A program made the position numbers and the translations under genes. Positions 1-17,000 of a DNA stretch of 64,000 nt are shown piece by piece. Below the pieces are notes generated by a model. It was given only the letters and a program-made list of their open reading frames with translations. It was not told where the DNA came from and did not search any database. The DNA is taken from IMG/VR virus record IMGVR_UViG_3300022928_002150, positions 1 to 64,000 of that record, one strand, 5' to 3'. How positions within the stretch are numbered: the stretch's first letter is position 1; the number at the start of each line of letters is the position of its first letter. This DNA is from a virus.

Positions 1-15
1 AATCCATTTTATCCA

Positions 16-237
16 TTACCAATTTCCTTCCTTTAACCAATCCGCATCGTAGATGTGTCCAATCCAACCTCCATACATTTCTAGTACATCGTGGTCAGAA
101 CACCCTTCTGCTTCTTCAGCACCTAACTCTACTAACTCGTCTCTCAGCTCTTTCATAAACTTCTTGAGCTCTCGAAAATCAGGGTGAATAAACACTGCTT
201 CTTGCTGCTCTGGGTCAAATACTACATATAATTTCAT
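16..237 (-). CDS. Hypothetical acidic protein, 73 aa
   Basis: I do not recognise the family. The protein is small and acidic, with a Glu-rich middle (a run like ELGAEEAEG) and a Trp-containing C-terminus (YDADWLKEGNW); it has no membrane segment or metal motif. An ATG start is preceded by AAGGAAAA at good spacing, and a sigma70 promoter lies just upstream at 263-292, so expression is well supported even though function is not. It is the last gene of a two-gene minus-strand group at the left edge and may be an early host-takeover protein, but that is only a guess from position and size. Confidence 0.7.
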   Translation of the reverse strand: MKLYVVFDPEQQEAVFIHPDFRELKKFMKELRDELVELGAEEAEGCSDHDVLEMYGGWIGHIYDADWLKEGNW

Positions 238-262
238 GGCTTTTCCTTTTATTTATAAAGTT

Positions 263-292
263 ATTATACCACAATTTTGGTATTCTGGTCAA
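263..292 (-). promoter_or_regulatory. Sigma70 promoter for the 73-aa gene
   Basis: On the minus strand TTGACC (292-287) is followed after 18 bases by TATAAT (268-263). It overlaps the stop codon of the upstream 84-aa gene, so the two small genes can be transcribed separately. Sequence match only. Confidence 0.6.
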
Positions 293-518
293 GAATTTTA
301 AACTTCTCACCCTCTTTAAATTCTGTTTTTTTGATTACTGCTTGGCCCAACACTGTAAAGTCTATGAAGTCAAAGGGTATAGACTTTATAGAGTGGTGTA
401 TGTCTTCTACTGTAGAGAAAGCTTTAGCTAAATTGATAGCTGTCTCAAAGTTAGAGTACGCACCTTTTATTGCACAGGTTTTGTCGTCTATCACACAAAA
501 GATCTTTTGCTTTGCCAC
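264..518 (-). CDS. Hypothetical protein, 84 aa
   Basis: Unrecognised small soluble protein. It begins at a GTG codon (MAKQKIFCVID) that sits 8 bases after AAAAAGGAG, a strong ribosome-binding site that decides this start. It has an alternating hydrophobic/charged pattern that suggests a compact alpha/beta fold; no catalytic motif is evident. A consensus promoter lies at 547-575. It precedes the 73-aa gene and has the same orientation. Product function unknown. Confidence 0.7.
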   Translation of the reverse strand: MAKQKIFCVIDDKTCAIKGAYSNFETAINLAKAFSTVEDIHHSIKSIPFDFIDFTVLGQAVIKKTEFKEGEKFKILDQNTKIVV

Positions 519-546
519 TTAATATACTCCTTTTTAATATGTGTAT

Positions 547-575
547 ATTATACTACCATTTGATTACGTTGTCAA
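547..575 (-). promoter_or_regulatory. Consensus sigma70 promoter (minus strand)
   Basis: TTGACA (575-570), a 17-base spacer and TATAAT (552-547) match both hexamers perfectly. A second TTGACA lies about 20 bases further upstream. The expected start near 540 gives a leader of about 20 bases with the AAGGAG site before the GTG of the 84-aa gene. Confidence 0.8.
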
Positions 576-710
576 ATGTTTTTTCTTTTTTGTCAATAAG
601 CAACCGCAACCTAATTCCCGGGGGCCGCCCTCGACCATTGCGGGGTCAAGTTTTTTGTCAAATTTCGGCGCAAATAAATTTTTTTAAATTGTACCTAACC
701 CTACACGGGC

Positions 711-740
711 TTGACATTACCCCGCTAAAGCCTGTATAAT
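711..740 (+). promoter_or_regulatory. Consensus sigma70 promoter (plus strand)
   Basis: TTGACA (711-716), an 18-base spacer and TATAAT (735-740). It points right, into the non-coding locus and towards the 3' end of the opposing PPK2 operon. The expected RNA start at 747-748 coincides with an ATG. Downstream sequence can form small stem-loops (CCGT/ACGG at 756-767, GATAA/TTATC at 800-816), so the product may be a structured RNA, a micropeptide mRNA, or an antisense transcript. Confidence 0.7.
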
Positions 741-747
741 ATACCTA

Positions 748-804
748 ATGGGATTCCGTGCACACGGCGGCGATCCTGGGTTTGGCGGGTGTTTGGTAAG
801 ATAA
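748..804 (+). CDS. Possible leaderless 18-residue peptide
   Basis: ATG begins 8 bases after the TATAAT of the 711-740 promoter, so the RNA would begin at or one base before the start codon. The reading frame gives MGFRAHGGDPGFGGCLVR then TAA. There is no ribosome-binding site, consistent only with leaderless initiation. Glycine-rich, with one Cys. The same geometry (7 bases between -10 and ATG) is seen at the terminase promoter at 4256-4292, which is the main reason to list it. Could easily be chance. Confidence 0.22.
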   Translation: MGFRAHGGDPGFGGCLVR

Positions 805-843
805 AGCGGGGTTATCTCAAATTAAGTCCGATTTGCTGCATGG

Positions 844-891
844 TACACTTTTACGTACATATAAGTGTATAAAAGTTACACTTTTACGTAC
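844..891. repeat. 15-base direct repeat pair with inverted copies
   Basis: TACACTTTTACGTAC occurs at 844-858 and exactly again at 877-891. Between them AAGTGTA (863-869) and TAAAAGT (870-876) are reverse complements of parts of the repeat, so alternative hairpins can form. Looks like a binding site array or origin element. Confidence 0.6.
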
Positions 892-897
892 GTAAAT

Positions 898-1134
898 TTT
901 GCACTTCATTTTCGCACTTGCTTCGGCGCAGCCGAGACCTGCGCAAATTTAAACTAATTACAACACACCCGCAAAAAGTCCTTGACATCGCATCGATTTC
1001 CCACTATAATCGGCGCGAGCAAATTTTCTACAAAATTTTCCGCAACTTTCCCCGAAGACTACCTTTTGATCCACCATACACGCACCCGCAAGGACGTAAC
1101 ACCAATCGGATTTGCACTTCGCTTTCGCACTGGC
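898..1134. repeat. 24-base imperfect direct repeats
   Basis: The segment 898-921 (TTTGCACTTC, two bases, TTTCGCACT, then a variable base and GC) recurs at 1111-1134 with 21 of 24 matches. The copies flank the second plus-strand promoter. Function unknown. Confidence 0.5.
982..1010 (+). promoter_or_regulatory. Perfect sigma70 promoter reading against the PPK2 operon
   Basis: TTGACA (982-987), a 17-base spacer and TATAAT (1005-1010). No start codon or ribosome-binding site follows closely. The transcript would run through the inverted repeat and parS into the antisense strand of the PPK2 gene, so a regulatory or antisense RNA is the simplest reading. Confidence 0.65.
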
Positions 1135-1141
1135 GCCCCCG

Positions 1142-1189
1142 CGCCAAAAATTTCAAGAAGTCAATGCTTTTTTCAAGAAATTTTTGGCG
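1142..1189. repeat. 13-bp perfect inverted repeat beside parS
   Basis: CGCCAAAAATTTC (1142-1154) and GAAATTTTTGGCG (1177-1189) are exact reverse complements separated by 22 bases. The right arm ends 4 bases before parS. The stem is AT-rich and is not followed by a T-run in either direction, so it is a poor terminator; a cruciform or protein-binding site is more likely. Confidence 0.6.
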
Positions 1190-1193
1190 AGAG

Positions 1194-1209
1194 TGTTTCA
1201 CGTGAAACA
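1194..1209. promoter_or_regulatory. parS: Perfect parS centromere-like site
   Basis: TGTTTCACGTGAAACA is a perfect 16-bp palindrome identical to the consensus chromosomal parS sequence bound by ParB/Spo0J, the CTP-dependent DNA clamp of chromosome segregation. It lies between the 13-bp inverted repeat and the stop codon of the PPK2 gene (1218). No parA or parB gene is present in the window, so if the site works it would have to load a ParB from the host or from elsewhere in the phage. The sequence match is exact; function is inferred. Confidence 0.75.
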
Positions 1210-1217
1210 TGCGCGAC

Positions 1218-1835
1218 CTATTCCAAATTTTCAAGTGTGGTATTGAGTGTTTCCAAAAGGGAATAGATGCCTTGCCGCTTGTCGTTGTAGTCGATCACAT
1301 GCCAATCAGAATCAATCACGCGCTCTTTTAATAGAGTCATGCGGTCATAGTATGAGAGCGCATTCTCGTCATTCTCGGAAAATTTCCAGTAGGTCAATGG
1401 CGATTTTTTTCTGCGCTCAATTCGTGCGCGTTGTTCATCCTCGGAAATTGAAAGCCAAAATTTAATCATGCGAACGCCTTGCGATTTTTCCCATGATTTA
1501 TGATTCGCTAGAAAATTCTTATATTGAGTTTCTGAGCACCAACCGTTTAAGCGTTGAACCATTGCGCGGCTATACCATGATCGATCATAAAAAACGATCT
1601 GGTTATATGCTGGCATTCTACGCGACCAATACGCAAGCCATTTTTTCATGGTGGACTTGCTAGGCTTGCGCGATAGATGCACAGAATAAAGCGCAGGATT
1701 CAGATAGTGCGTCACCTCGCGAATCGTCGAGGATTTTCCGGCAGTGTCGCGACCTTCGAGCACCACGCAGATTCTATCGAGCGCTAGATTTTCGAGATTG
1801 CGATTCAGTCGCGCCTGTTCTGTTTTTAATTTCAT
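1218..1835 (-). CDS. ppk2: Polyphosphate kinase 2 (PPK2)-family protein
   Basis: PPK2 enzymes move phosphate between inorganic polyphosphate and nucleoside mono- or diphosphates in the cytoplasm. The 205-residue protein shows the PPK2 P-loop (GRDTAGKSS, residues 28-36), the FYDRSWYSR motif (82-90) corresponding to the family's Walker B region, and an Arg/Lys-rich lid followed by PLTYWKFS (about 138-153). It is shorter than typical 230-300 residue enzymes and starts almost at the P-loop, so the N-terminal strand is trimmed. ATG start with TTGGAG upstream. One base separates it from the preceding 36-aa gene, indicating coupling. Last gene of the left minus-strand operon, next to parS. The NDP- versus NMP-preferring class cannot be assigned by eye. 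Confidence 0.85.
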   Translation of the reverse strand: MKLKTEQARLNRNLENLALDRICVVLEGRDTAGKSSTIREVTHYLNPALYSVHLSRKPSKSTMKKWLAYWSRRMPAYNQIVFYDRSWYSRAMVQRLNGWCSETQYKNFLANHKSWEKSQGVRMIKFWLSISEDEQRARIERRKKSPLTYWKFSENDENALSYYDRMTLLKERVIDSDWHVIDYNDKRQGIYSLLETLNTTLENLE

Positions 1836-1836
1836 A

Positions 1837-1947
1837 TTATACAGTCTCCAAAAGAAGCCAGATTATACCGCAAACGAGAATAAAATCAGCGCATAGCGAG
1901 TAAATTATATAAGCCTTGAAAGCTAAAGCGAGCAATTTGGTTTTCAT
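1837..1947 (-). CDS. 36-residue single-pass membrane protein
   Basis: Small gene fitting exactly between the exonuclease stop (1949) and the PPK2 start (1835). It starts MKTKLLALAFKAYIIY and continues with a hydrophobic stretch (FILVCGIIWLLL), predicting one transmembrane helix with a short basic N-terminus. AAAAAAGG lies at a workable distance from the ATG. The stop TAA is one base from the next ATG, a coupling arrangement that supports it being real. Function unknown; possibilities include a holin-like, superinfection-exclusion or membrane-anchoring peptide. Confidence 0.6.
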   Translation of the reverse strand: MKTKLLALAFKAYIIYSLCADFILVCGIIWLLLETV

Positions 1948-1948
1948 A

Positions 1949-2683
1949 TCATGCAACCTTTTTTGCAGTAAAATGATTTTTTGCTTGATAGTCGCGCCAG
2001 TTATAGCCAACGCAAGAATCTATGATGTCGGACATTTTACCGCGTTTTATGATTGCGTTCAATATAGGCAATTCGTAACCGATAATATCCTCTAACGCTG
2101 TATGTGGCTCGTCTGGCAAATCTTGACCCGTAACGAATCGCGCCATAACCTCGGCGTTGGTTTGGTAAGTCATATTGCCGAAAGCAGTAGGCGGATTAAA
2201 GTAATGATTTTGCATGATGAAATTTTTATATGCCGTAGAGGATGCCCATTTTACGCAGGCCGCTTGCCAGAGGCAGAAGCGCTGAGAAAAAATAGAGTGA
2301 TCTATTCCAGTATTTGACATTTTGCCAGAATCAAAGCCTAGATTGTAAGCGGTCAAGATTGGGTCGTATTTTCCGACCGCCCGCTCTAACCAGCGGTTAA
2401 TCGCGCCCACGCTTGCAATCATGCGCGAGCCATCCTGTACCATTTTTTGATATTTTGCATACCGTCGGTCTGCTGATTTGCGAGACCATAGCGCAGAAGG
2501 GCCAGCATCCTTATTAAAAAAGAGCGGGTGATTTTCTGCATCCGTGAAAATGCCGTCAACCATGACAGCGCATTGAGCGTGAATGCGCCCCTTGCGGTCT
2601 GTGATAGTGCAAGCAAAATCAGCGACCTTGTGATCTTGCGTTGTTTCAACATCGATTGTCGCTATATATTGTTTCTTGCTCAT
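1949..2683 (-). CDS. DEDD-family 3'-5' exonuclease (DnaQ/RNase T-like)
   Basis: The protein carries the exonuclease I motif ATIDVETT (Asp11, Glu13), the exonuclease II region TAYNLGFDSGKM (Asn114, Asp118) and the exonuclease III motif PHTALEDIIGYE (His194, Asp199), i.e. the DEDDh metal-binding set used for 3'-5' removal of nucleotides. 244 residues, a single domain without a polymerase. Its ATG overlaps the stop of the upstream HAD gene (TAATG), so translation is coupled. In a phage it may proofread, trim recombination ends or degrade host nucleic acid; the substrate (DNA or RNA) cannot be told from the motifs. Confidence 0.85.
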   Translation of the reverse strand: MSKKQYIATIDVETTQDHKVADFACTITDRKGRIHAQCAVMVDGIFTDAENHPLFFNKDAGPSALWSRKSADRRYAKYQKMVQDGSRMIASVGAINRWLERAVGKYDPILTAYNLGFDSGKMSNTGIDHSIFSQRFCLWQAACVKWASSTAYKNFIMQNHYFNPPTAFGNMTYQTNAEVMARFVTGQDLPDEPHTALEDIIGYELPILNAIIKRGKMSDIIDSCVGYNWRDYQAKNHFTAKKVA

Positions 2684-3150
2684 TATGCAGCTACCTTTTT
2701 TGCTTGGTTATATTTTACCGGATCGATTACACGAAAGCCAGCATTTTTTAAAGTTTGTTGCACGTCTGCGTTGTCATCCCAAAGGATAACGCGACGACGA
2801 ATTTCGTCGAACGAAACGCGGCGAGCAATCGCAAGCTCTGACATTTTGGCGAGCTTGAATTCACCAGCGGGTCGATTGTCATCGATTGAACGCGAAAGCG
2901 TAAACGCTGGCAGCATTCCGCGCATGCGTAGCCAAACGCGATCAACGCTACCCATGACGCGAGAAGTACAAATGCCAACGTCTAACCCTTCCGAGATGGC
3001 TTGAATCATTGTAGAAGCAAGCGGAAGCGTAGAGTCGCGCATGACGTTTGCGGGTGTATTCATTCTGCGCCAGTCGCTTAACGTCTCACCTTGACGGTGG
3101 GTCGAGTCGATGACAGTCTCGTCGAGATCAAATAAAAAAATTGGAAGCAT
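2683..3150 (-). CDS. HAD-superfamily phosphatase
   Basis: 155-residue haloacid-dehalogenase fold protein. Motif I is FLFDLDETVIDS (nucleophile Asp8, acid/base Asp10), motif II is GICTSR (Thr62), a Lys near 99-102 fits motif III, and ILWDDNADV supplies the motif IV aspartates (125-126). This size and motif set resemble phage 5'-nucleotidase or polynucleotide 3'-phosphatase domains; no kinase domain is attached. Neighbours are an exonuclease and a PPK2 enzyme, so a role in nucleotide or DNA-end dephosphorylation is plausible. It overlaps the upstream membrane-protein gene by 23 bases and the downstream exonuclease by one base. Confidence 0.8.
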   Translation of the reverse strand: MLPIFLFDLDETVIDSTHRQGETLSDWRRMNTPANVMRDSTLPLASTMIQAISEGLDVGICTSRVMGSVDRVWLRMRGMLPAFTLSRSIDDNRPAGEFKLAKMSELAIARRVSFDEIRRRVILWDDNADVQQTLKNAGFRVIDPVKYNQAKKVAA

Positions 3151-3325
3151 AACCGATAATCCCTATTGTGTTTAATATAAGCAGATTGTAGCATTTTTTC
3201 TCGTATGCTTGCAAGCATAACAGAGCAAGTCCAATGATCGCCATGAGTTTACCCGCTGGCATGTCAATGAGGAAGGGAGCCGCGCCAAGCAGCGCGGTGC
3301 CTATCCAAGAGCAAACCGCAATCAC
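3128..3325 (-). CDS. Small membrane protein, 65 aa
   Basis: Hydrophobic protein with two to three predicted membrane segments (about residues 3-20, 26-41 and 48-63) separated by a short charged turn (AYEKKCYN). It starts at GTG, and this GTG overlaps the TGA stop of the upstream gene (GTGA), a typical coupling overlap that decides the start. No family recognised. Could be a holin or membrane modulator, but holin function cannot be claimed from topology alone. Confidence 0.65.
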   Translation of the reverse strand: MIAVCSWIGTALLGAAPFLIDMPAGKLMAIIGLALLCLQAYEKKCYNLLILNTIGIIGYASNFFI

Positions 3326-3618
3326 GCGAGATGCTCTAAAACGCGGCTTAAGCCATCAACGGTGAGATTTTCGCGGTCACTCTCGGGTAATCCCAGAGAT
3401 CGCTCGATAGCACTCACAAGCTCGCGTTTAGTTGGGCCTTTTGGCCTTTTAGCCGCTGGAGCTTTAGCGATATAGTCAACGCCTTCGCTTTTGGCTTTGG
3501 CGATGATAGAGCGATAAGACACGGAACCGAATTCGTCGGCAAGCGCCTTTGCTTTGTCTAGGTCAAGGGGTGCAAGATCGCGCATTCGCTTAACCATTTT
3601 TTCAGTGTATGTAGCCAT
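3322..3618 (-). CDS. Conserved-looking phage protein, 98 aa, basic
   Basis: Lys/Arg-rich protein with a helical N-terminal half (MVKRMRDLAPLDLDKAKALADEFG) followed by a segment resembling a small helix-turn-helix (SVSYRSIIAKAKSEGVDY), a Lys/Pro linker (AAKRPKGPTKRE) and a helical C-terminus. Proteins with this start and the pattern around VSYRSIIAKAK are, to my recollection, frequent in marine podo- and siphoviruses, with no assigned function. A DNA-binding role is suggested by charge and the helix pattern only. AAGGA precedes the ATG; promoter at 3662-3690. First gene of the overlapped block. Confidence 0.75.
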   Translation of the reverse strand: MATYTEKMVKRMRDLAPLDLDKAKALADEFGSVSYRSIIAKAKSEGVDYIAKAPAAKRPKGPTKRELVSAIERSLGLPESDRENLTVDGLSRVLEHLA

Positions 3619-3661
3619 AACTTTTTTTCCTTAGTGATTAATGCTTTATTGCATGGGTAGG

Positions 3662-3690
3662 ATTTTACAGAGGTATTCTGCAAATGTCCA
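3662..3690 (-). promoter_or_regulatory. Promoter of the left minus-strand operon
   Basis: TGGACA (3690-3685), a 17-base spacer, TAAAAT (3667-3662), with an A-tract just upstream resembling an UP element. The expected RNA start is near 3655, leaving about 37 bases before the ATG at 3618. Confidence 0.65.
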
Positions 3691-3726
3691 GTATTTTTTA
3701 TATCAAGATAGAATAACGATATTCCA

Positions 3727-3837
3727 TTATGGTATAAGGTTTAGCAAGAACGATCCTGCTATTGGCATCAGAATTGCTAAGGCAATTACCATGCCAATAA
3801 TTCCTAAGAGCGCTCTAGTGAATAAATCGTGAAACAT
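3727..3837 (-). CDS. 36-residue hydrophobic membrane protein
   Basis: Begins MFHDLFTRALLGIIGM and is almost wholly hydrophobic to its end (…AGSFLLNLIP), predicting one membrane helix. AAAAGG lies 7 bases before the ATG, and a promoter (3869-3897) lies upstream, so this short gene has a full expression context. It is the first gene after the divergent control region on the minus strand. Unknown function. The identical length to the 36-aa gene at 1837-1947 is probably coincidental, since the sequences differ. Confidence 0.6.
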   Translation of the reverse strand: MFHDLFTRALLGIIGMVIALAILMPIAGSFLLNLIP

Positions 3838-3868
3838 TTTTTATACCTTTTGTTTTTATATGTGATGG

Positions 3869-3897
3869 ATTTTACAGGGTCTAATTCCAAATGTACA
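3869..3897 (-). promoter_or_regulatory. Promoter of the 36-aa membrane gene
   Basis: TGTACA (3897-3892), a 17-base spacer, TAAAAT (3874-3869), followed by a leader of about 25 bases. Second copy of the cassette at 3662-3690. Confidence 0.65.
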
Positions 3898-3939
3898 GGG
3901 TTTTTTATATCGATGTGCTATAAGCTTATAACCAAATGT

Positions 3940-4078
3940 GCGTCAATAGTTTGACGCGGGGCGTGCCCTAGCTCTTAAGCAGGAATCGTGCCAACTTTAT
4001 TTTTCCCTTATAAATCAATAGGTTACGCGCGCCTGCCCAGGAGGGGGCGGTTAAGAGACCGTCAAAATTTTGACGCGC
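3940..4078. repeat. Two related dyads, GTCAA-N4-TTGACGCG
   Basis: GCGTCAA/TTGACGC with a 4-base gap at 3940-3957, and the perfect palindrome GTCAAAATTTTGAC at 4061-4074 followed by GCGCG. Both read GTCAA, four bases, TTGACGCG. They look like two binding sites for one dimeric regulator. Confidence 0.5.
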
Positions 4079-4106
4079 GCGGCCCCATCTTTACGTAAAA
4101 CTTTGT

Positions 4107-4151
4107 AAAAAACCGAAAAAACCCGAATCGGCGAAAAAACCTGAAAAAACC
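4107..4151. repeat. Phased A6CC tracts
   Basis: AAAAAACC occurs at 4107-4114, 4116-4123, 4134-4141 and 4144-4151, with start spacings of 9, 18 and 10 bases. A-tracts repeated at about one helical turn bend DNA, so this stretch is probably curved, about 105 bases upstream of the terminase promoter. Confidence 0.5.
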
Positions 4152-4255
4152 TCATAAAATTCGAACACGTCCGCAAAAATTTTTCCTCTTAATTTTCTTC
4201 AGCATGTCTGAACCTTCCCTTTCCACCTTCCTACCTCACCTTCGAAAAATTTTTC

Positions 4256-4284
4256 TTGACATTCGATCTGCTCGAATGTATAAT
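4256..4284 (+). promoter_or_regulatory. Consensus promoter with built-in 21-bp operator
   Basis: TTGACA (4256-4261), a 17-base spacer and TATAAT (4279-4284). The segment 4259-4279 is a perfect dyad: ACATTCGA, TCTGC, TCGAATGT. It runs from inside the -35 to the first base of the -10, so a bound dimer would block polymerase. An A/T-rich tract precedes the -35. The expected RNA start (4291-4292) is at the ATG of the terminase gene. Confidence 0.85.
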
Positions 4285-4291
4285 TTATAGC

Positions 4292-4765
4292 ATGTCAAAA
4301 GAAGTTTCTATAATATCTCCCGAAGGAGTAGAAGTAGCTAATTGCTATCTCCAATACGGCAACATAAAGGCAGTTTGCGAATACATGTCTGTGCCAGAAC
4401 ATAGGGTAGTAGAAATTTTAAATACGCGTGAAGTAAAGCGTTATGTAGACACTGTGTATTTAGATATGGGGTACAGGAATAAAAATAATATTGCAGCTGT
4501 TCTTGACGAAATGATAGCATCAAAGCTAGAAGAGGCTCAAGAGAGCGGTATGTATACATCAAAGGATCTAGCGGATCTGATGGTCATGGCCCATAAAATG
4601 AGAATGGACGAAATTAAAGCGTTGGCAGAAGCTGAAAAGGCGTCCAATGCAGCCACTATTCGTAGTCAAACGAATGTACAGATTAATGAAGGTATTCCTT
4701 TTGGGCAAGGCAACTACGGTAAGTTGATGGAAAAATTATTAAATGGAGCTGGAGCAACAGAATAA
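4292..4765 (+). CDS. Probable terminase small subunit
   Basis: 157 residues from MSKEVSIISPEG. An N-terminal helical region with a possible helix-turn-helix (YLQYGNIKAVCEYMSVPEHRV) would recognise packaging-site DNA; the middle (DMGYRNKNNIAAVLDEMI to DLMVMAHKMRMDE) is strongly helical, as needed for ring assembly. It opens the virion gene cluster and lies well before the large subunit at 25379. The ATG at 4292 is chosen because the frame's earlier TTG lies inside the promoter; the chosen start has no ribosome-binding site and sits at the expected RNA start. The assignment rests on family resemblance and position, not on a diagnostic motif. Confidence 0.6.
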   Translation: MSKEVSIISPEGVEVANCYLQYGNIKAVCEYMSVPEHRVVEILNTREVKRYVDTVYLDMGYRNKNNIAAVLDEMIASKLEEAQESGMYTSKDLADLMVMAHKMRMDEIKALAEAEKASNAATIRSQTNVQINEGIPFGQGNYGKLMEKLLNGAGATE

Positions 4766-5033
4766 TCGCATAGATCGAATAGAGAACAAAATTGACAAAT
4801 TAACAGAACTAGTAGTAGCACTAGCAAGAGTAGAAGAGCAAATTTCAGACTTAGATGACGCAAGAGACAAAATTGAATCGAGAGTTACAGATATTGAAAT
4901 TATGCAAACGGTCGCACTTAGAGATATCGATAACCACGGCCATATTCTGCAAAGCATTACTAGACTGCTATGGATCGCCGTCACCGGCTTGATCACCTCA
5001 GGAATCGCAGCAACACTAGTAACTATTGGATAG
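4743..5033 (+). CDS. Coiled-coil protein with C-terminal membrane anchor (holin-like)
   Basis: 96 residues. Residues 1-70 form heptad-patterned helices (RIDRIENKIDKLTELVVAL and onward) and residues about 74-95 form one hydrophobic transmembrane segment. This layout resembles XhlA-type haemolysin/holin-associated proteins of phages, which assist lysis, but a structural anchor is equally possible. It overlaps the end of the terminase small-subunit gene by 23 bases and is followed by the giant fibre gene after 3 bases. Confidence 0.55.
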   Translation: MELEQQNNRIDRIENKIDKLTELVVALARVEEQISDLDDARDKIESRVTDIEIMQTVALRDIDNHGHILQSITRLLWIAVTGLITSGIAATLVTIG

Positions 5034-5036
5034 AGA

Positions 5037-8000
5037 ATGGCTTTAGTACTACGACTTGTAAAAGGCACAGAACTTACTTTTACAGAGCTAGACGGAAACT
5101 TCACTTACTTAAATACAACTAAGTACGAAAGTGGAGATGACGCCCAATTTGGACAACTGAATTTTAGTACCCTCTCAGACGGTGTGCTACAGATTCTTGC
5201 GTTCACAAATGACCCGACTCTGAATTCTATAGACGGGTCAGTAATACTTCCTACTGAAGAAGCAGTAAAATCTTATGTTGCTTCTTATCACACTAATAAT
5301 CCTTATTCTTTTTCAGAACTCAATGACTCGAGCGGTGCTGGATTTCTCGGTGCCGTACTCATTCATGACGGCAGTAACTACGTTCCAAAAGCTCTTGAAA
5401 TCACAGACTTTTCAGATTTCGATGTTTCTACTGTTTCAGACGGATCTATTCTTGCATACGATGCTCAAACCTCTCTCTGGACCGCAACCTCTGCGGCAGC
5501 TTTAAGTTCCGTTTATTTAAATGATCTTGTAAATGTAAATGTTACAGGTGCCTCTGAAAATGATGTACTCGCTTTTGACGGGTCTTTTTGGGTAAGTACA
5601 AGTCCTGTTCTAGAAATAGAAAACTTAACAGATGTAAACTACCTCACAACTCCGAAGGCTGGCGAATCTTTAATATACGATGACGTTTTAGAACAGTGGA
5701 TTCCTGGAACACCAGCTACTGTCGGAAAACTAACTGTATCAGCCGCACTCAATACTAACATTACTGCAGGAAAGGCTGTTACAGTAGGTAGACAGAATAA
5801 CAGAACTGTAGTCTTTCCTATCTCTTATCTACCTCCTGAGTTTGGTCAATCAGAAACTGTTGGTAATCAGTTAGGCGCTCAAACTCATTCGCTATGGCTA
5901 AGCTCTCAGAAAAAATTTATTGTAGCATTTATTAATGCTACTACAGGTGCGGGCGAGTTTGTAATTGGAGAAGTAGATGATGATGGTGTAGAGATAACTA
6001 TGGACACCACTGTCCATGAGTTTGCTACCGGCGTCGGAGGAGAGTTCTCCGTTACGTATGATATAGCAACTACTCGAGTTATTTTTGCCTGGAAAGATAT
6101 TATTACCAATATTGGATATACTCGTGTAGTTACAATTGCAGGGTTTGCGGTAAGCATGTCGCAGTTTCCTATCGATTTTTCTTTGGGCGAGGCTATCGGC
6201 TCTCACTCCGTCTCTTCTGACACACAAAGCGGAAATTTAATTTTTCATTATGCGGATAACTCTTTAAACGGAGGAGGCGTAGGTATAGGTCGAGTAGGTG
6301 AAATAGATGGCTTAGACGTACTTTTTCAGCCGCCCACTGCTTTTACAACCAGGGAAGTTTACGACCTTCATACTGTTTATGCTCCTACAACTAATAGGCA
6401 CGTTACTGTATTTACTGACCAAATCAGTGAAGGCTACTCGATGGTCACTTTACTTACGGGGGTATTTGCAACTTATAGAACACCAAGAACATTTGATGAT
6501 GACTTAAGTTTTCCTTTTGTAACTATACTTCCAGACGGTAGCTCTTGCTGGGTTGCTTATAAAGATAATACGGTTAGTCCCCCTCGTGGAAAGGTCACAA
6601 GGTTTACTGCTAGCGCCACAGGTACTAGCACGGTAACAGACAACTCGTTGTACTCCAGATATTTCTTCGAAGATGGAACTGGCTCAGGGCCTACCCCGTA
6701 TAACATGTCAAATATTAGGCCTGCAGTCTTAGCATCCACTACAGATAGGGCGGCAGTTATTTTATGGGGGAGAGAGAACTCTGACACCAATGATATAGAA
6801 CTCTTTACAACAACTATTGCATATAGTGAATGGAGTGGCCGCCCCATTGTAGATATAGACGGAGCTGAGGCAGCTTCAGACGATACTTATGATTCTTTTA
6901 TAATAAATGGAAGCATACATCCCGCTTCTACTAGTGGGCTAACAGAAAGTAGAATGATAGTTCCGTTAGATTTAGCTACGGGAGTACGGGCTATAACCTA
7001 TGGGAACAATCCAGTAACTAATATTAAAGACTGGTTTGGTATCGCAGATGAAAGTTTTTCTAGTGGTTCAAGTGACTATAATTCTGGAATTATAACTATT
7101 TTAGGGGGCCAGACGAAGGTTACTAGTTGGATAGGTGGTTCACAGCCGAGTAATTTTGTTCCTGGTACTCCAATTTATATTGATAATTCAAGGTTATACC
7201 GAGGAAGTCTTCGCACCAGTGATGTAGGAAGCGGCGCCATTGGCATAAGTATAGATGCAAGCACCGTTCTTATTACCGGTGATGTCGAGCCAAATCCTAG
7301 CATAGCAGGTATACCCAAAAGCATAACAGAACTAGAGGATGTGGATACACTATCGACAGCTCCTCTTTCTCAACAATTTCTTCAATGGAATACCAATGCA
7401 CAAAAATGGGTTCCAGCCTATGCCTCAGTAACTGGTCAAATAAGTAATCTTGATGATGTCGATACTTATAACGGTTTTGAAGCTGGCATACCTAAAAGCC
7501 ACTTACTTGCTTGGGATAATTTTAACATAGAATGGGTTCCTAAATCAATAAATCAAATTTTAATTGATGAGCCTGTAGAGCTGGGAGAACTTAGTAATGT
7601 AAATTTTGTTCAAGTAAATGATGGAGATCTGCTCACATACAATGGTCCTACTCAGACTTGGATTTCATCCCCGGTAAATTTAGAAACCGATCTTGGAGAT
7701 ATAAATGATGTAGATTTAACAACCGGATTAGCTACAGGAACATATCTTCAGTATGATGGTGCTAATTGGGTTCCTGGCCAAGCCGTTTCAACTATGCCCA
7801 GGTTTAGAGATCTTGCAGATACCGGAGGCCAGTGGAGTGGCCAACAAGGTATGGTACCTATATTTAATACAACGGGTACCTATGCAAACCAGTTCACCTT
7901 AGGCTTTGTTAGTAATTTTGGCGGCATTGGAGACTTGTTTGATGTAGATACTTCTACTATTTCGCCCCAACCCGGTCAGTCTCTTGTTTGGAATGGAACT

Positions 8001-11000
8001 AAGTGGGCGCCTGCTACTATTACTGGTGGTGGAGGAGGAAGTACTGGCGGTGGCGATACTGGAGGGGGTACTACTACTACTCCTAGCCCAAACCCTGACG
8101 GGGGTGGAGGAAGTACTGGCGGAACCGTTGAAACGGAAGACGGGGATATAATAGAAATTCCCTCTTTAGACGTTGATGAAGATATAGAAGAACCTATCGA
8201 AACTGGAACTGGGTTTGTTTCTGAGACTGTTACTAATACTGATACTGTACCTGCAACGGATGTTATTCCTGAAAACGTAAAGCCGGGCGACTTATTTCAA
8301 ACACCCTCATTATCTAAGCCGTATCCTGTTGTATACAGCATATCTGAAGACAGGACAGAGCTCACTCTTTCTGAAAATATATCAACTAGTCAATTTGAGG
8401 CTATTATTTTTGCAACTCCTCCTGTCTACCAAGTAGTTGCAACTACTGGCACTGTAGAGGTTGGTCAGGGGGTTGTAGGTACTGAATCCACTAGTGAGAT
8501 CTTTCTTGATACTCCTTTGCCTGAAGAAATTGTTCCTGGTCACGCTGTTTACATAGGAAGCAATGTAAATATTCCTATTGTAAGTGGAATAAGTGGAGAC
8601 AGATTAAGCTTTGCTGTAAGTTATGATATAGATATAACTGCAGGCGCTACTATTATATTTAAAGTAGTAATTCCTATGGCAATCTCTCAGGATGTAGGAT
8701 CATTCGTAAATAACAATCCTGCAGGGACTACTGGTAGCAACACTATTGTACTGAACGACCCTGTGGGCCCAGATGTAGAAGTTAATCATTATGTAATGCA
8801 CTCGGAACTAGAGTCTGCTCCTAGAGTAGTATTTATATCTACAGACAGACTTAGCATTACTGTAAATAAAAATGTAGACGCTTTAGTAGACGGTCAATTT
8901 ATTACCTTTGGTAGTACTACTAGCAAGCAGCAAGAAGTAACGTTTACTCTAGCGGAACTATCAGATACAGATATTCAAACAGCTGCTTTGCAAGATGGAG
9001 AGGTTTTACTGTGGAACTATGAAAACCAAGTATGGACTACTAGTGACGTCCAACTATCTAATTCATTAGACGCATTAAATGATGTTCGTATCGACAACCC
9101 TCAAGAAGGTCAAATACTTAGATATACTACACTAGCTGATGCAAACAGATATGAAAATATAGATCCCAGTTTTGGAGCAGGCGCTCTAGCAGATTTTAAT
9201 TACAATATAGCGAATCAGGCATCGAACAATATTCTTACGTGGCACGCCCCTTCTTCCGCCTTTATCAGTACTCCTATAGGCGAGGTCATGAGAGCAAGTG
9301 ACTATACCATGAACAACCTTGCAGACGTTACTGGTGTGCCCTTTGATGGATCTGCTTTAGTATACGACAGTAACACAGGATTCTATAGCTCTGCGTCCTT
9401 CCCAGACAGCATATATGATTTAGCTGATGTCGCAGGTTTGCCAGAACCGTCTGATGCTCTTGTATGGAACGGCGCAAGCTGGAGCCCTGCGCCCATACCC
9501 AGGGCTTTAGAAGACCTAAACGAAAGATCTATTTTTCTATTAAACCAGCTAAACGAGAACGGTTTTCAAAATCTGGGAAATACACCTTCTTCTAAGTTTT
9601 TAAAATGGACGGGAACTACTATAGATACTGTAGTTACGGGCAGCATAGAAGGAATAGGACTTAGATTAGAAGATTTAGACGATGTTTCAATAACTGAACC
9701 CTACAATTCGGATTTTATTTCTTGGGATCCCGATACAAACTCATGGGTAACTAGAAGTGTAGAAGGTGCAGTAATTTCTATAGGTTTGGATGTTTTAACC
9801 GATGTAGATTTTCAGGCAGTGCCTCCACAAAACAGAAACACATTAGAGTATAACGCGTCTACAGGGGAGTGGAGACCTGCAACTCGCTCAGGTGTAGCCA
9901 ACTATATAGCCGCTGAAAACCTTTCAGCAGGTGACCTACTAGCTTTAAGATCAGACGGCGAAGTCGAAAAAATAGCAGAAATAGAAAGTAGTGTATCCAG
10001 CATCTTTCAAGCTTCAGGTAGCCCTTCAGTAAGTTCTGATTACTATGGTAAAAGTGTATTTGTATCTGATGACTATTATATTGTGGGAGCTCCAGGGTAT
10101 GAGTACTTAACTGTTGGGGGTAAGGTAGAAATATTCTCTACAAGTACTAACACCCTTGTACAAACTATAAACAACCCCAATGCAACTGCCAATGATAAAT
10201 TTGGAGAATCGGTATCAATTTCAAGCCAGTTTTTTACTATTGGGGCTCCAGGCTACGACTCTAATGCAGGCCGAATATATGTATATAGTTTACCAGGGTT
10301 CATACTAGAACATACTATCGACAACCCAAATGCAGCAACATCAACGTTAGACGACCAATTTGGCTTTAGAGTACAGAATACAAATACTTATGTAGCGGTT
10401 ACTGCAATTAATGAAGAGCCTCAATCCTTGTCAGATACTAACTCTGGCACAGTGTACGTATTTAACACTGCAACTGGAAATCAGTTAGGCTTTGTAGAAA
10501 ATCCCTCTCCCAGCATAACAGGGTTTGGTAGTGCTATATCAATATCTACTTCAGGCGATTTAGCTATTGGAAGCCCTAGCGAGGAAAAAGTATATGTCTA
10601 TGAGGCAGCTACTTTAAGCTCTATCTATACTATTTCTAACCCTGGCGGTGCAGGAGACTTCGGTAGCTCTATTGCAATTTCTTCTGACGGACGTATGGTG
10701 GTTGGTGCTCCTACTGCTGATACGGGCAGCGGAAAACTGTATATATACAATTTAAATAATGGCGATTTTAACTATACTCTTAACAACCCTAATAGAAACG
10801 CAGACGTACCCACAGGCGATAATTTTGGTAGTAGCGTTGCTGTAACAACTGAGTATATACTTGCTTCTGCCAGTGGAGAGAATGTAGGGAGTGTTTATTT
10901 GTTCGAGGCCGCCTCGGGAGCTTTTAGAAATGAATTTTTATCAGATGAAGGAGCAACAAATATAAATTGGGGATTTGGTCTAGCTCTTACGAACGACTAT

Positions 11001-14000
11001 CTTATTATTGGTTCGCCTAGACTAACCGTTGCAGGTACAGGTAAAATTGCAACTTTTGCTAGTGATTCGTTCATAGAAAGTAATGCTGGTGATTGGGTAG
11101 GAATATCAGAACAATCGGTAGAAGCTACTCAACAAGTAACTGTAACAACTGTAGGTGCCGTAAATAAGTTTGTATCCGGTCTGACTATTAATAAAAACTA
11201 TTATATAGACGGTAGAGGCTTTATAACTGAGACTGAGACAGATTACGGTGTGTTAGGAAAAGCTCTTGCTGCTGATGAGTTGCTTATTACAGGAAATGTA
11301 GTATCTGCTGAAACCGGAGTAACTTATATAAATGATATCCGTGATGTAGATACTGTAACTGTTCCTCCCTCTAACAATCAAGGCTTAGTATGGGATAGTG
11401 CTAATAATAGGTGGGCCCCTAAAAATATAGGATATAGTAATATCACTACTTTTGGTGGCTTAACAGATACAAGTGTTGGGGGAGTCCAAGCAGGCCAAGG
11501 TCTTAAATACAGTGGATCTTCATGGGGTCTTGCAACATATATTGAAGCTGGAACTCTATCTCTAAGTAGTCTATCAGATGTTGATACTTCCGGGGTTGTT
11601 GATAATGCCGCCTTAGTTTACAGTTTGCAATTTGATGAGTGGCAGGCAAGTGTTATACCGATCCCAGCAACAATAAACGATTTAAATGATATAGATCTTT
11701 CCACAGTATCTGCGGTTAATAATGATGTATTAGTTTATAATGCCAACAGCGAGCTGTGGGAGCCAGGTCAAGTTTCTAGAGTATCTGCGCTTGGGGACTT
11801 AATCGATGTAGATTTAGCTTCTCAGCCGCCTGTACAAGATAATGTTATTGCTTATCAAGCGGGCGTTGGCTGGACACCTGTTCAAATTACTAATATTACC
11901 GTAACGCAGTTAGATAACATGGATGATGTTAGAACTGCGGGACTTTATGCACCTGTTCCAGGAGAAACTTTAATTTGGAACGGTATTGAAGGCGTATGGG
12001 AGCCAGGCTCTCCAGCCTTAGACACTATTAGTATAGGATCTCTTTCAGACGTAGATACTACGCCCGGCACTGCAAGTGAGCCTAGTTTCGGAGAATTTTT
12101 AGCCTGGGACGGAGTTAATTGGTCTCCTGGCTCAACAGCACCTACTGCTGCAACTCTTAATAGTTTGCTAGATGTAGAGGTAATTGCAAACCCAGCAAAA
12201 GAAAAGGAAGTACTTACTTATGATGCTACTACCCAGAAGTGGTACCCTAGAGCAGGGCACTCGGGTGGTATAGAAAACTTCATAGCAAATGGAGATATTA
12301 GTGATGGAGATATAGTTTCTATTACCCCTCCTGGAAAAGTTAAAAAGACAGGTCAAGAGCCCTTTTTACCTGCTTGGAATGTAGAAAACCCTACTATATT
12401 TGGTACGGCTACCAGTGATCAATTTACTAGTGCAGTTGTTGCATCAGGAGATTATATTATTGCTGGTGCTCAATATGAGGACGAGATAGAAGGAAGTAGT
12501 TCTGGGGTTGTATACGTATTTAATAATTTTGGTACTCAACAGTATTATATTAAAAATGAAAATATAAATAATCCTGTAACAGGGGACCGATTTGGTAATT
12601 CTTTAGACGCTAGCGGTAACCTTCTAGCGGTAGGATCTCTTCTTGCTGATGATCTAACAGGGTATAATCAAGGAGCAGCTTATGTCTACCGCTTGGCTAC
12701 AGGAACATCCCCTAGTGGAGACTTATGGCTATCAATACAAAATCCTGATGGTACAAACAACGCGCAGTTTGGCACTGACGTAGCTATAAGCGATTATAAT
12801 GGTGAGGCTCGTTTAGCCGTCGGCGCACCACTAGAAGATATGAGTGACCAATACTCAGAAGCTGGATGCGTATACTTTTTCGATCCTGACATAGGTGTAG
12901 GAGACCCTCAATATGGGTTTTTATACCGTATTGATAATCCTAATACAGTCGGTAGTATATCAGGGGATTACTTTGGCCAAAGAGTGTCTCTTACTCAAGA
13001 TAGAAAATACTTAGCTGTTACTGCGTCCAGAGAAGGTACAACTAGCGTAAAGGGATATGTCTATATATATGACGTAAGCAGTGACTCTCTTCCCGTTTTA
13101 TTACATACTATATCAAATCCAAATCCGGGTGGAGGTTCAGATGCAACGCATGGGTTTGATATAGTATGGGATAGAAATCCATCAATTAAAAGATTAGCTA
13201 TATCTGCACCAGAGCAGGATTTTACGGGTGCTAATGAAGGTCTTGTTTATATATATGATGTAACCGATGAAGCTTGTACTCTTATAAATACTATTCAAAA
13301 CCCTGATACTTATCCTCTTCCGCAGGGAGATGAGTTCGGCTACTCCATCGATATGAAAGATAACAAAATACTAGTAGGTGCAAGAAGAGAAGATCAGGGG
13401 TACATAGGAGGAGTATATACTAATGCTGGTAAGGCTTATTATTTCGAAGCCGATACCGGTACTCCTATTGCATATTTTGACAATCCTAATATATATGGGA
13501 ATAGTACAACTGAGTACTTTGGTTCAAGTGTTGCTATTGGTAATGATAAATTATACGTAGGTGCTCCTTTTGCTAGGAATACTATTTCAGGTGACTTTAA
13601 CTCTGGACACCTTACAGCTTTTGATATTAATATAACTAGTAATGCTTCATCTTGGATAGGAGTAGCTTTTGAAGATATTTTAGATGGAGATGTAGGACAA
13701 GTAACCCTGTTTGGTGGTATAGCACACAATCAAGTTAATCTATTGCCGGGACAGAATTATTATTTAAATATTGATGGTACTCTTAACAGTTCTCCCACAA
13801 ATTTAGGTATTTTTGGTAAAGCTTTAAGTGCAAACGACATTTTAATAACAGGGGACGTTGAATCTAATACTGCTGACCAAGTAAATAATTTAAATGATCT
13901 TGGAGATGTTACTGCATTTGCTTCAGACGGCCAGGCGCTTGTTTGGAACGCACAAAGCTCTCAATGGGTAGCAGGAGATGCGGCTGGGGGTGTTAGTAGC

Positions 14001-17000
14001 TTATCGGATTTAGATGATATAAATTTACCTATACCTTCAAATATTCAAACAGGGGAGGTTTTAACTTGGAACGCGGTATCTCAGTCTTTTGTTAATGCTG
14101 TAACTGGTTCAAGTAACGTAGACGTATTAGATGATTTAACAGACGTAGATCTTAGTAGTGTTTTACCTTCAGCTTTGCAGATATTGCAATATAATGGCTC
14201 AATATGGTCTCCTCAAGACTTACCCGAGGGACAGCGTATTACTGGTATTGCAGCGGAGCAAATATTACAAGGCGGCTTAGTAGTACTAAATAGTTCTGGT
14301 CAGTTTGAAAATCCCACAATAACTGCAGGGGAGCTGGTATCTTCTTTCCCATCTAGCTCAGATTTGGGACTTTTTGGGCATACAATTGCAGAAGAAGGCG
14401 GCCGTGTCGCAGTTTCAGCACCTTATCATAGAATTGGCCCCAACAGCGGAGTCGCAACCGGCCTAGTAAGGATTTATGATACAGATAACTCTACTTTAAT
14501 ACGTACATTACAACCCTCCCTAAGCCTCACAACGCCCGCGGCTTGGCGAGGAGAAACTAATCAGGCGTTTGGATTTGCAGTAGCAATAAAAGATGATTAT
14601 GCAGTTGTAGGCTCTCCTCTTAAGGATTTAGATGCGGTTAATTCTGGCGTTGTATACGTATATAGAATAAGCTCAGGTACTTTAATAGCAGTTCTAGAAA
14701 GCCCTGAGCCTCTTCTCCAAGGGCAGTTCGGTTCCTCAGTAGCTATTAACTCAACCTATGTAGCAGTGGGCGCACCACGAGTAGATATAGGGAATAATGC
14801 ATTAGTAGGTAAAGTATATAGATATCCTATCTCGTTATTAGAGTCATCAGAGTATGGAATACCAGAAGGAGAAACAGAAGCAAGATGGGATCCTCTTTTA
14901 GTTCCTGATTTTACATTCAACAATAATAATGATGATGGAGGCACTGGAGGAGACCTGTTTGGGTCTGCACTGAGCGCAACAGATACTTACTTGTCTATTG
15001 GAGCTCCTGGGGAGGATACTGGAGGACAGCTATCAACCGGTAGAATATACGTTCGTAATATTAATACTGGGTCTACTATACACACTCTGCAGGATACTAA
15101 TATAGGATCTAACGGACTAGGTTTTACCTTCGAAATGGATGATTCTATCATAGTTGCAGGAACCCCAGACTTTAATGGAGGTTTGGGAAGGGTATTGGTA
15201 TATTCTACAACCTCGGGTGCAGTGCTTGCAGAAATAAACAGTCCAGATCAGATAGGAGATAAATTCGGTAGGTCAGTAGGGCTGGGATCGAGTCAAATCG
15301 TTGTAGGTTCAGAAGCAAATAATGACGTATTAGGTTACAATGACTCAGGAAAGTTTTATAGCTATAATAGAGCATCCACTACTTCGTACCCCCTATATGC
15401 GGCATTTGAAAACCCGGGTTATGTTGTCAACCCTTCCGGAAGTTTATTTGGATTTTCTGTAGCGGTAACAAATTCTGGTCGTGCTATTGTTGGTGCTCCG
15501 TATAATGATAATGTTCAGGGAACTCAACAGTTCCCCGCAACAGATAGAGGGGTATTCTTTATATACGATGTAACACTGCAAGCTACACAATCAAATGCAG
15601 CAGACTGGATGGGCATTGCAGAACAGACAGCAGTTACAGGAGAACAACTAGAAGTGGTAATTCTAGGAGGAAAAACTTCTAGTATTTACTCTAATTTAGT
15701 TCCTGGAGAATATTACTATGCTGGGGCTGACGGAAGTCTAACCCTTGAAGAAACTTCTTACGGAATAGTAGGTCCTGCAGCAAGTGTTTCTGAAATATTA
15801 ATACTTGGAAGTATTTCAGGCGTATCTGATATGGCTGACTTAGCTGATGTTGATTTTTCTGCGGGATTAGTTCCCCAACATGGATTAACTTGGAACGGTC
15901 AAAAGTGGGTAGCAAGCTATGTATCAACAGTAACTAATTTACTAGATCTTGAAGATGTAAATTTACTAGACTCTCCTCCAGAAGATGCACAAGGCTTAGT
16001 TTATGATAACAACACGTCTAAATGGGTTCCTGCTAATATAGGCTACTCTAATGTAGCTCAGTTTAGTGATCTTAATAATGTAGATGTTAGTAATGCTACA
16101 GTAGGCCAAAGCATTGAATGGAACGGAGTAAATTGGATTCCTACTACGTTTTCTTCTGTTAATAGTATAAATGATTTAACGGATGTAAACACTACTACTC
16201 TTAAAGTTGATTACGATATACTTACTTGGAGCGAGTCTGCAGATGAGTGGATAATAGACAAACGTAATTTTGGCAATTTTTTAAACCTAGAGGCTTATGC
16301 TCCAACACAACCAATACAAGCTGGAGATCCTGTTTATATTACGGACGATGGTAAAGTTGCTGCAATCAAAGGCACGGAGACTGTTCTAGGCACAGAAAGC
16401 CTAGTAAATACTTTATATCCTCCTGTATCGAATTCTAATTTTGGAACTAATTTAGCGGTTAGTAAAGATATTATAGTTGTAGGTAACCCGTATTTTACCA
16501 GCGGAAATATTCTGAGTACAGGTAGAGCATACATCTATAATGCTACTAGTGGGCAGCTTCTATATACTTTGGAGCCTCCTACTGATTATTCATTACAAAG
16601 TTTTGGCTGGGGAGTAGCTACAAATGGCAGCGAAGTAGCTATTACTGCTAAAGAGTCTCCCTCTAATAATGATTACGGGCGTATTTATTTATACGATGCT
16701 TATACAGGAGCTTTATTAAGACAAATAGTAAACCCAGAAGACTCTGTATCTACGAATGGCCCTTTTGCTCAGCATAATTCAGTAGTAATGACGTCATCTT
16801 ATTTAATTGTAGGTAACTCTAATTGGAGAGATGCTACGTTAGGAACTACTCCGGGTAAGGCATACGTATTTAATATATTTACAGGCACTCAGGAGTATAG
16901 TTTTAATAACCCAAATCCTTCTAATGGAGCAGATTTTGGTCGATATATTAATATAGATGAAAGTGAAAGTATCATTTCAATAACAGATACAGGCACTGGA

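Follow-up and report, generated by a model that had tools for sequence, protein, structure and literature searches.

A conserved chromosomal-type parS site without parB in a clade of divergent T5-like marine phages

The parS locus and the phage that carries it

The window analysed here, i.e., the whole stretch of 64,000 nucleotides, covers positions 1 to 64,000 of the IMG/VR virus record IMGVR_UViG_3300022928_002150 (G000; 95,808 bp). The ends of this record are identical over 185 bp (1–185 and 95624–95808), so that it closes to a genome of ~95.6 kb, and the joint between them is spanned by a near-identical contig, L002. Near the start of the window, a parS site lies at the edge of a non-coding region of ~700 bp that bears three sigma70 promoters, each matching the consensus at 12 of 12 positions:

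519–1217, no strand assigned: non-coding region, control or origin-like in character, in which the promoters, parS and both direct and inverted repeats lie
547–575, minus strand: sigma70 promoter (consensus 12/12), pointing away from parS and into small leftward genes
711–740, plus strand: sigma70 promoter (consensus 12/12), pointing toward parS
982–1010, plus strand: sigma70 promoter (consensus 12/12), pointing toward parS, with no ORF before parS
1129–1149, minus strand: GC-rich conserved block TTTTGGCGCGGGGGCGCCAGT, usually 38–60 bp from parS in relatives (from an alignment and an independent scan)
1142–1189, no strand assigned: inverted repeat with 18-nt arms, 89% complementary, between the block and parS
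1194–1209, no strand assigned: parS, the 16-bp palindrome TGTTTCACGTGAAACA, perfect, present once per genome here and conserved in relatives
1218–1835, minus strand: PPK2-family polyphosphate kinase gene (PF03976, E 5.7e-42), its 3' end facing parS
1949–2683, minus strand: phrog_20187 neighbour, conserved, of unknown function, with putative DEDDh-exonuclease-like motifs picked out by eye
2683–3150, minus strand: phrog_415 neighbour, conserved (polynucleotide kinase/phosphatase-like)
4256–4765, plus strand: terminase small subunit, in conserved synteny with the parS region

The 16-mer at 1194–1209 is a palindromic match to the chromosomal-type parS patterns GTTYCACGTGRAAC and TGTTTCACGTGAAACA and is identical to the B. 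subtilis parS consensus, TGTTNCACGTGAAACA (PMC7022226). An exact palindromic consensus had been read here from the letters of the window, and it stands as read: no other match to TGTTTCACGTGAAACA occurs within 3 mismatches in the 64 kb, and the entire record holds one exact copy. The accompanying claim that chance is too poor an explanation is also upheld, with ~4e-5 exact copies expected in 95.6 kb at the base composition of the genome (GC ~39%), although the conservation described below is the stronger test. The sequence-only reading had seen no parB in view, which holds over the whole genome: HMM searches of the complete G000 record with PF02195 (ParB_N) and PF17762 (HTH_ParB) gave no match anywhere, and ParB_N was not found in 27 related contigs; on these searches we reject a phage-encoded ParB. 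The remainder of the genome, where that reading had proposed to look for further parS sites and parB-like genes, contains neither a second exact site nor a ParB domain; nor is this a self-contained phage or plasmid ParABS system, as no ParB/CTPase or HTH_ParB gene was found in the same genome. Judged by its match and its conservation, 1194–1209 is a real, selected parS of the ParB type in a phage without parB.

Stretches of 900 bp next to parS contain, over 47 distinct loci, 168 near-consensus promoters (92 pointing toward the site and 76 away from it), against a total of ~0.85 in a mononucleotide-shuffle control, and almost always 1–4 of them in a locus point at parS. Cumulative GC skew turns (minimum) within 1–3 kb of parS in G000, G027 and G030, i.e., near the site in 3 of 4 long genomes, the global minimum of G019 lying away from it. 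Because skew follows gene direction, which confounds it, and because G019 deviates, skew is no proof of an origin. From its sequence, the region has the look of an origin or control region, and we accordingly use the terms origin-like and control-like for it. Strong promoters arranged in tandem with no gene behind them are reminiscent of the transcription-primed origins of phages such as T7, and the gene-less tandem promoters ahead of the inverted repeat (711–1190), an arrangement conserved in ~47 loci, could belong to a short non-coding RNA or to a transcription-primed origin. An Rfam search of positions 500–1300 gave just two sub-threshold matches to microRNA families, which we judged to be chance. 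In L010, the counterpart of the inverted repeat is a strong hairpin, similar in form to a terminator acting in both directions.

The PPK2 gene is frequent in the clade and mobile around the parS block. Palindromes of the AAATGAGAAnnATTCTCATTT type, some of them partial, occur beside or instead of parS, or near the GC-rich block, in L006, L008, L009, L016, L025/L026, L310, L317 and L324, with two copies in L310. This form matches the gammaproteobacterial Fur-box consensus, and phages of the clade may carry sites for a host iron regulator too.

The TerL of this phage is up to 48.6% identical to those of Demerecviridae, the nearest being that of Vibrio Pogseptimavirus. Its gene set includes capsid/protease, ribonucleotide reductase, family-A polymerase, primase and a DnaB-like helicase, along with an SbcCD-like nuclease, a split NAD ligase and a D5-like regulator. 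Homology of TerL, capsid/protease and polymerase places it with the relatives of the Demerecviridae, and given the TerL identity and the Demerecviridae-type gene set, we identify it as a divergent T5-like phage from an uncultured marine clade. No tyrosine integrase, as would be expected of a temperate phage, was found in G000 and eight long relatives (nine genomes), and a nucleotide search of window positions 1–6000 against cultured phages returned no match. Beside the small terminase gene, the window holds a single ORF of 4,647 aa (5037–18980); in L166 (6146–7950), the NAD-dependent DNA ligase is encoded as two adjacent genes; and G030, the record behind L031, has a 4.9-kb direct repeat at both contig ends, possibly a long terminal repeat of the T5 kind.

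This clade has TerL (identity up to 48.6%) in common with the cultured T5-like phages (Demerecviridae; Pogseptimavirus, Cetovirus and T5 relatives), as well as capsid, polymerase and nucleotide genes, but is set apart from them by the site, which is present in 0 of the 15 cultured relatives examined (fourteen T5-like phages and the more distant Pseudomonas phage phiK7B1). The sequence-only reading had named no standard feature of this kind in lambda- or T5-type phages; the phage is indeed T5-like, yet its 15 cultured relatives are without the site. Eight of the fourteen cultured T5-like phages infect Vibrio, and the hosts of the rest are mostly Enterobacterales, whose chromosomes are not known to carry ParABS. 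Vibrio has ParABS, and since its eight phages nevertheless lack the site, a host ParB alone does not predict the site's presence.

Conservation and variation of the site

Relatives were collected by two scans blind to the site itself, one with the neighbouring PPK2 protein and one with the adjacent GC-rich block, TTTTGGCGCGSGGGCGCCAGT. Among the contigs found through PPK2, 33 of 44 have GTTYCACGTGRAAC at ≤1 mismatch, at one locus each (one contig has two sites, 57 bp apart, within its single locus), and in the 11 misses the contig mostly ends before the region. The block scan returned 67 contigs, one of them truncated, leaving 66 informative: the site lies 38–128 bp upstream of the block in 55 of the 67 and ~250 bp upstream of it, inside PPK2, in two more, for a total of 57 of 66. 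Block contigs outside the PPK2 set, searched over their whole length, contain the site in 39 of 48 cases, almost always once. Reversed-pattern controls gave no match in the PPK2 set and one each in two block-set contigs. Related phages at the same locus, the comparison by which the sequence-only reading had suggested its claim be judged, thus mostly keep the motif together with its flanks. The block is kept without the site in about 9 of the 66 contigs (~5 lineages), so the site is not indispensable. Chance as the source of the match is refuted by conservation in both the PPK2 and the block sets.

Information in the aligned loci is concentrated on the site. In 27 anchored loci, its 16 positions carry 28.5 bits, and the flanks are near random (per position, 0.19 bits to the left of the site and 0.41 bits to the right of it). 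The site repeatedly switches among GTTTC/GAAAC, GTTCC/GGAAC and hybrid forms; the main changes are T/C in the half-site and A/G at its mirror position, in the combinations TA (29), CG (45) and CA (17), and the T/G combination occurs in 0 of 91 oriented loci, a count that includes overlapping copies of some contigs without deduplication. A few contigs differ at an outer base or in the central CG. Mapped onto the PPK2 tree, the half-site state requires at least 11 changes, and an independent-pairs test of half-site covariation gave no significance, with too few supported pairs; the argument from covariation therefore uses the number of changes and the lack of any T/G combination.

The site is retained when its neighbours are rearranged. 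ORFs have been inserted between it and PPK2 in L008, L014, L040 and L042; in L031, PPK2 is ~4 kb off and the site remains with the non-coding block; and in L306, L320, L348 and others, PPK2 sits on the other side of the block, with which the site again remains. Because PPK2 moves in this way, to the other side or kilobases away, while the site stays with the non-coding block, the silencing of the PPK2 operon that the sequence-only reading had offered as one role is weakened, and we reject PPK2-specific silencing as the sole role. In L010, the site overlaps the PPK2 stop codon. L317 and L324 have no intergenic copy at all; instead, PPK2 itself contains TGTTTCACGTGAAACG in frame and at that point reads RIVSRETSPLTYWKF in these two contigs, as against RIERRKKSPLTYWKF in the window (VSRET versus ERRKK). 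A parS inside PPK2 is a natural experiment that points to selection on the DNA site itself, and no other single observation indicates as strongly as this placement that it is the DNA site that is wanted. As the sequences show, the site is under strong purifying selection and varies almost only within the ParB-recognisable set of forms that candidate hosts use.

A separate exact-match scan found the 16-bp parS in at least 120 viral contigs (L046–L165), some with 2–5 copies. Since 24 of the 28 long viral contigs that carry an exact parS have no ParB_N domain, orphan parS sites may extend more widely than the present clade.

Candidate hosts and possible roles of the site

TerL relatives that fall into genome bins point to gammaproteobacteria in 6 of 8 cases (Halieaceae MED611, Porticoccaceae MED754, CPC27, CPC44 and ERR598946), which is suggestive of gammaproteobacterial hosts, resting as it does on MAG binning, in which viral contigs are often misplaced. 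The motif is present in 55 of 61 genomes of the family of the Halieaceae MAG, mostly as two copies ~630 bp apart; in the Halieaceae MAG examined, both copies lie in recF-gyrB next to dnaN, i.e., at oriC, and in CPC27 it is again the recF-gyrB region that holds the site. The parS forms of these candidate hosts are CG, CA and TA, as in the phages, with the host assignment itself being suggestive. The phage site shares with chromosomal parS near oriC, the target of ParB/Spo0J, its 16-mer, the main variants of the candidate hosts and possibly an origin-like setting, but differs in standing as one copy in a genome without parB.

ParB is a CTP-dependent sliding clamp. We propose that host ParB would load on the phage DNA at the single chromosomal-type parS and would then spread into the neighbouring phage DNA, where, with ParA and/or SMC, it would position or organise newly injected or replicating DNA, as at the host oriC. 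The strictness with which evolution has kept the site argues that these phages probably borrow the host segregation machinery. The components of this proposal differ in strength. That host ParB binds the phage site during infection is very probable. The best explanation of the site, in our view, is an orphan centromere at which host ParB would be loaded onto the phage genome, a case that we see as evenly balanced. That a widespread, virulent marine lineage recruits ParB clamps, and then ParA and/or SMC, through a single orphan centromere beside an origin or early promoter array, with its lytic cycle depending on this, is a plausible reading that falls somewhat short of an even case. We hold more tentatively that the region is a replication origin or early control region and that ParB, acting together with ParA and/or SMC, serves to position or organise the phage DNA there. 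In an engineered lambda-parS system, ParB finds and coats a phage genome bearing parS on infection (PMC13190303); as would be expected of the marine phages, parS on the phage genome is recognised and coated by ParB in the infected cell, whereas the engineered site is an artificial label read by experimenter-supplied CFP-ParB and the marine site is natural and conserved.

Host ParB at the site might instead act as a local regulator of transcription, its spreading clamp or roadblock silencing the promoter array once the early phase is over or, in a variant of this role, keeping antisense transcripts of the array out of the convergent PPK2/nuclease operon. The site almost always lies within ~130 bp of the block, at the mouth of 1–4 near-consensus promoters, and there is precedent in P. 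aeruginosa, where two intergenic sites, parS3 and parS4, bring about repression of the promoters next to them through ParB (PMC5521831). We nevertheless consider local regulation unlikely: an inverted-repeat or terminator-like element already separates the promoters from parS, the distance to the promoters is flexible, PPK2 itself is mobile, and the site can lie within the PPK2 coding sequence, a setting in which parS of P. aeruginosa brought no repression (PMC5521831). More doubtful is sabotage by titration, with replicated phage genomes sequestering ParB (and SMC) of the host, drawing it away from host parS and so disturbing segregation and division. Tens of phage copies would outnumber the ~2 parS of the candidate hosts, yet titration would favour several sites per genome where one is the rule, and late disruption of segregation would be of little gain to a lytic phage.

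If host ParABS maintained the phage in a carrier, pseudolysogenic or plasmid-like state, a role also raised by the sequence-only reading, the single site would be accounted for, as a low-copy replicon needs one centromere and ParABS is a partition system. This possibility is weakened to the point of being quite improbable by the lack of a tyrosine integrase in the nine genomes and of ParB, and by T5-like content, including T5-like replication, ribonucleotide reductase and structural genes; no Rep or immunity gene was recognised either, many small ORFs being unannotated. The phage does encode DNA-binding proteins, e.g., the D5-like regulator, for one of which the palindrome could be an operator that resembles parS by coincidence. 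We regard this as very improbable, because 14–16 positions are exact, host parS has the same main variants, a regulator with a single operator in the genome would be unusual, and the phage has no HTH_ParB or ParB_N domain. Chance or a recent capture of host DNA has next to nothing to recommend it: parS is common in host chromosomes, but here it is conserved alongside PPK2 proteins down to ~50–60% identity with its flanks diverged, no host flanking DNA accompanies it, and a copy lies in PPK2 where the intergenic one is missing.

Relation to known systems and significance

Phages with partition or cytoskeletal systems of their own are known, and plasmid-prophages with parABS carry their own ParA and ParB, use unrelated sites of their own and are temperate. 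Such plasmid-prophages (P1, N15 and extrachromosomal mycobacterial prophages; PMC7157519) likewise have a centromere site on the phage genome; in the marine clade, by contrast, the site is of the host type and ParB is missing. If our preferred role is right, PhuZ, TubZ and the AlpA/AlpC proteins of CGP3 (PMC4446434) are alike in organising phage DNA spatially for replication, but these are self-encoded filaments or adaptors, whereas in the marine clade a bare DNA site would recruit the machinery of the host. A search of the open-access literature on parS in phages returned only engineered sites or phage-encoded ParB, and no report of a virulent phage lineage that naturally carries an orphan parS of the host type, though an earlier mention elsewhere is possible.

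Should host ParB load at the site, a segregation protein studied almost only for chromosomes and plasmids becomes a phage host factor, and infection would, if this is true, constitute a natural assay of what one parS does on incoming DNA (positioning, SMC loading, silencing or titration). This conserved site is also of use as a hint of host range, because the hosts of phages that carry it should have ParABS.
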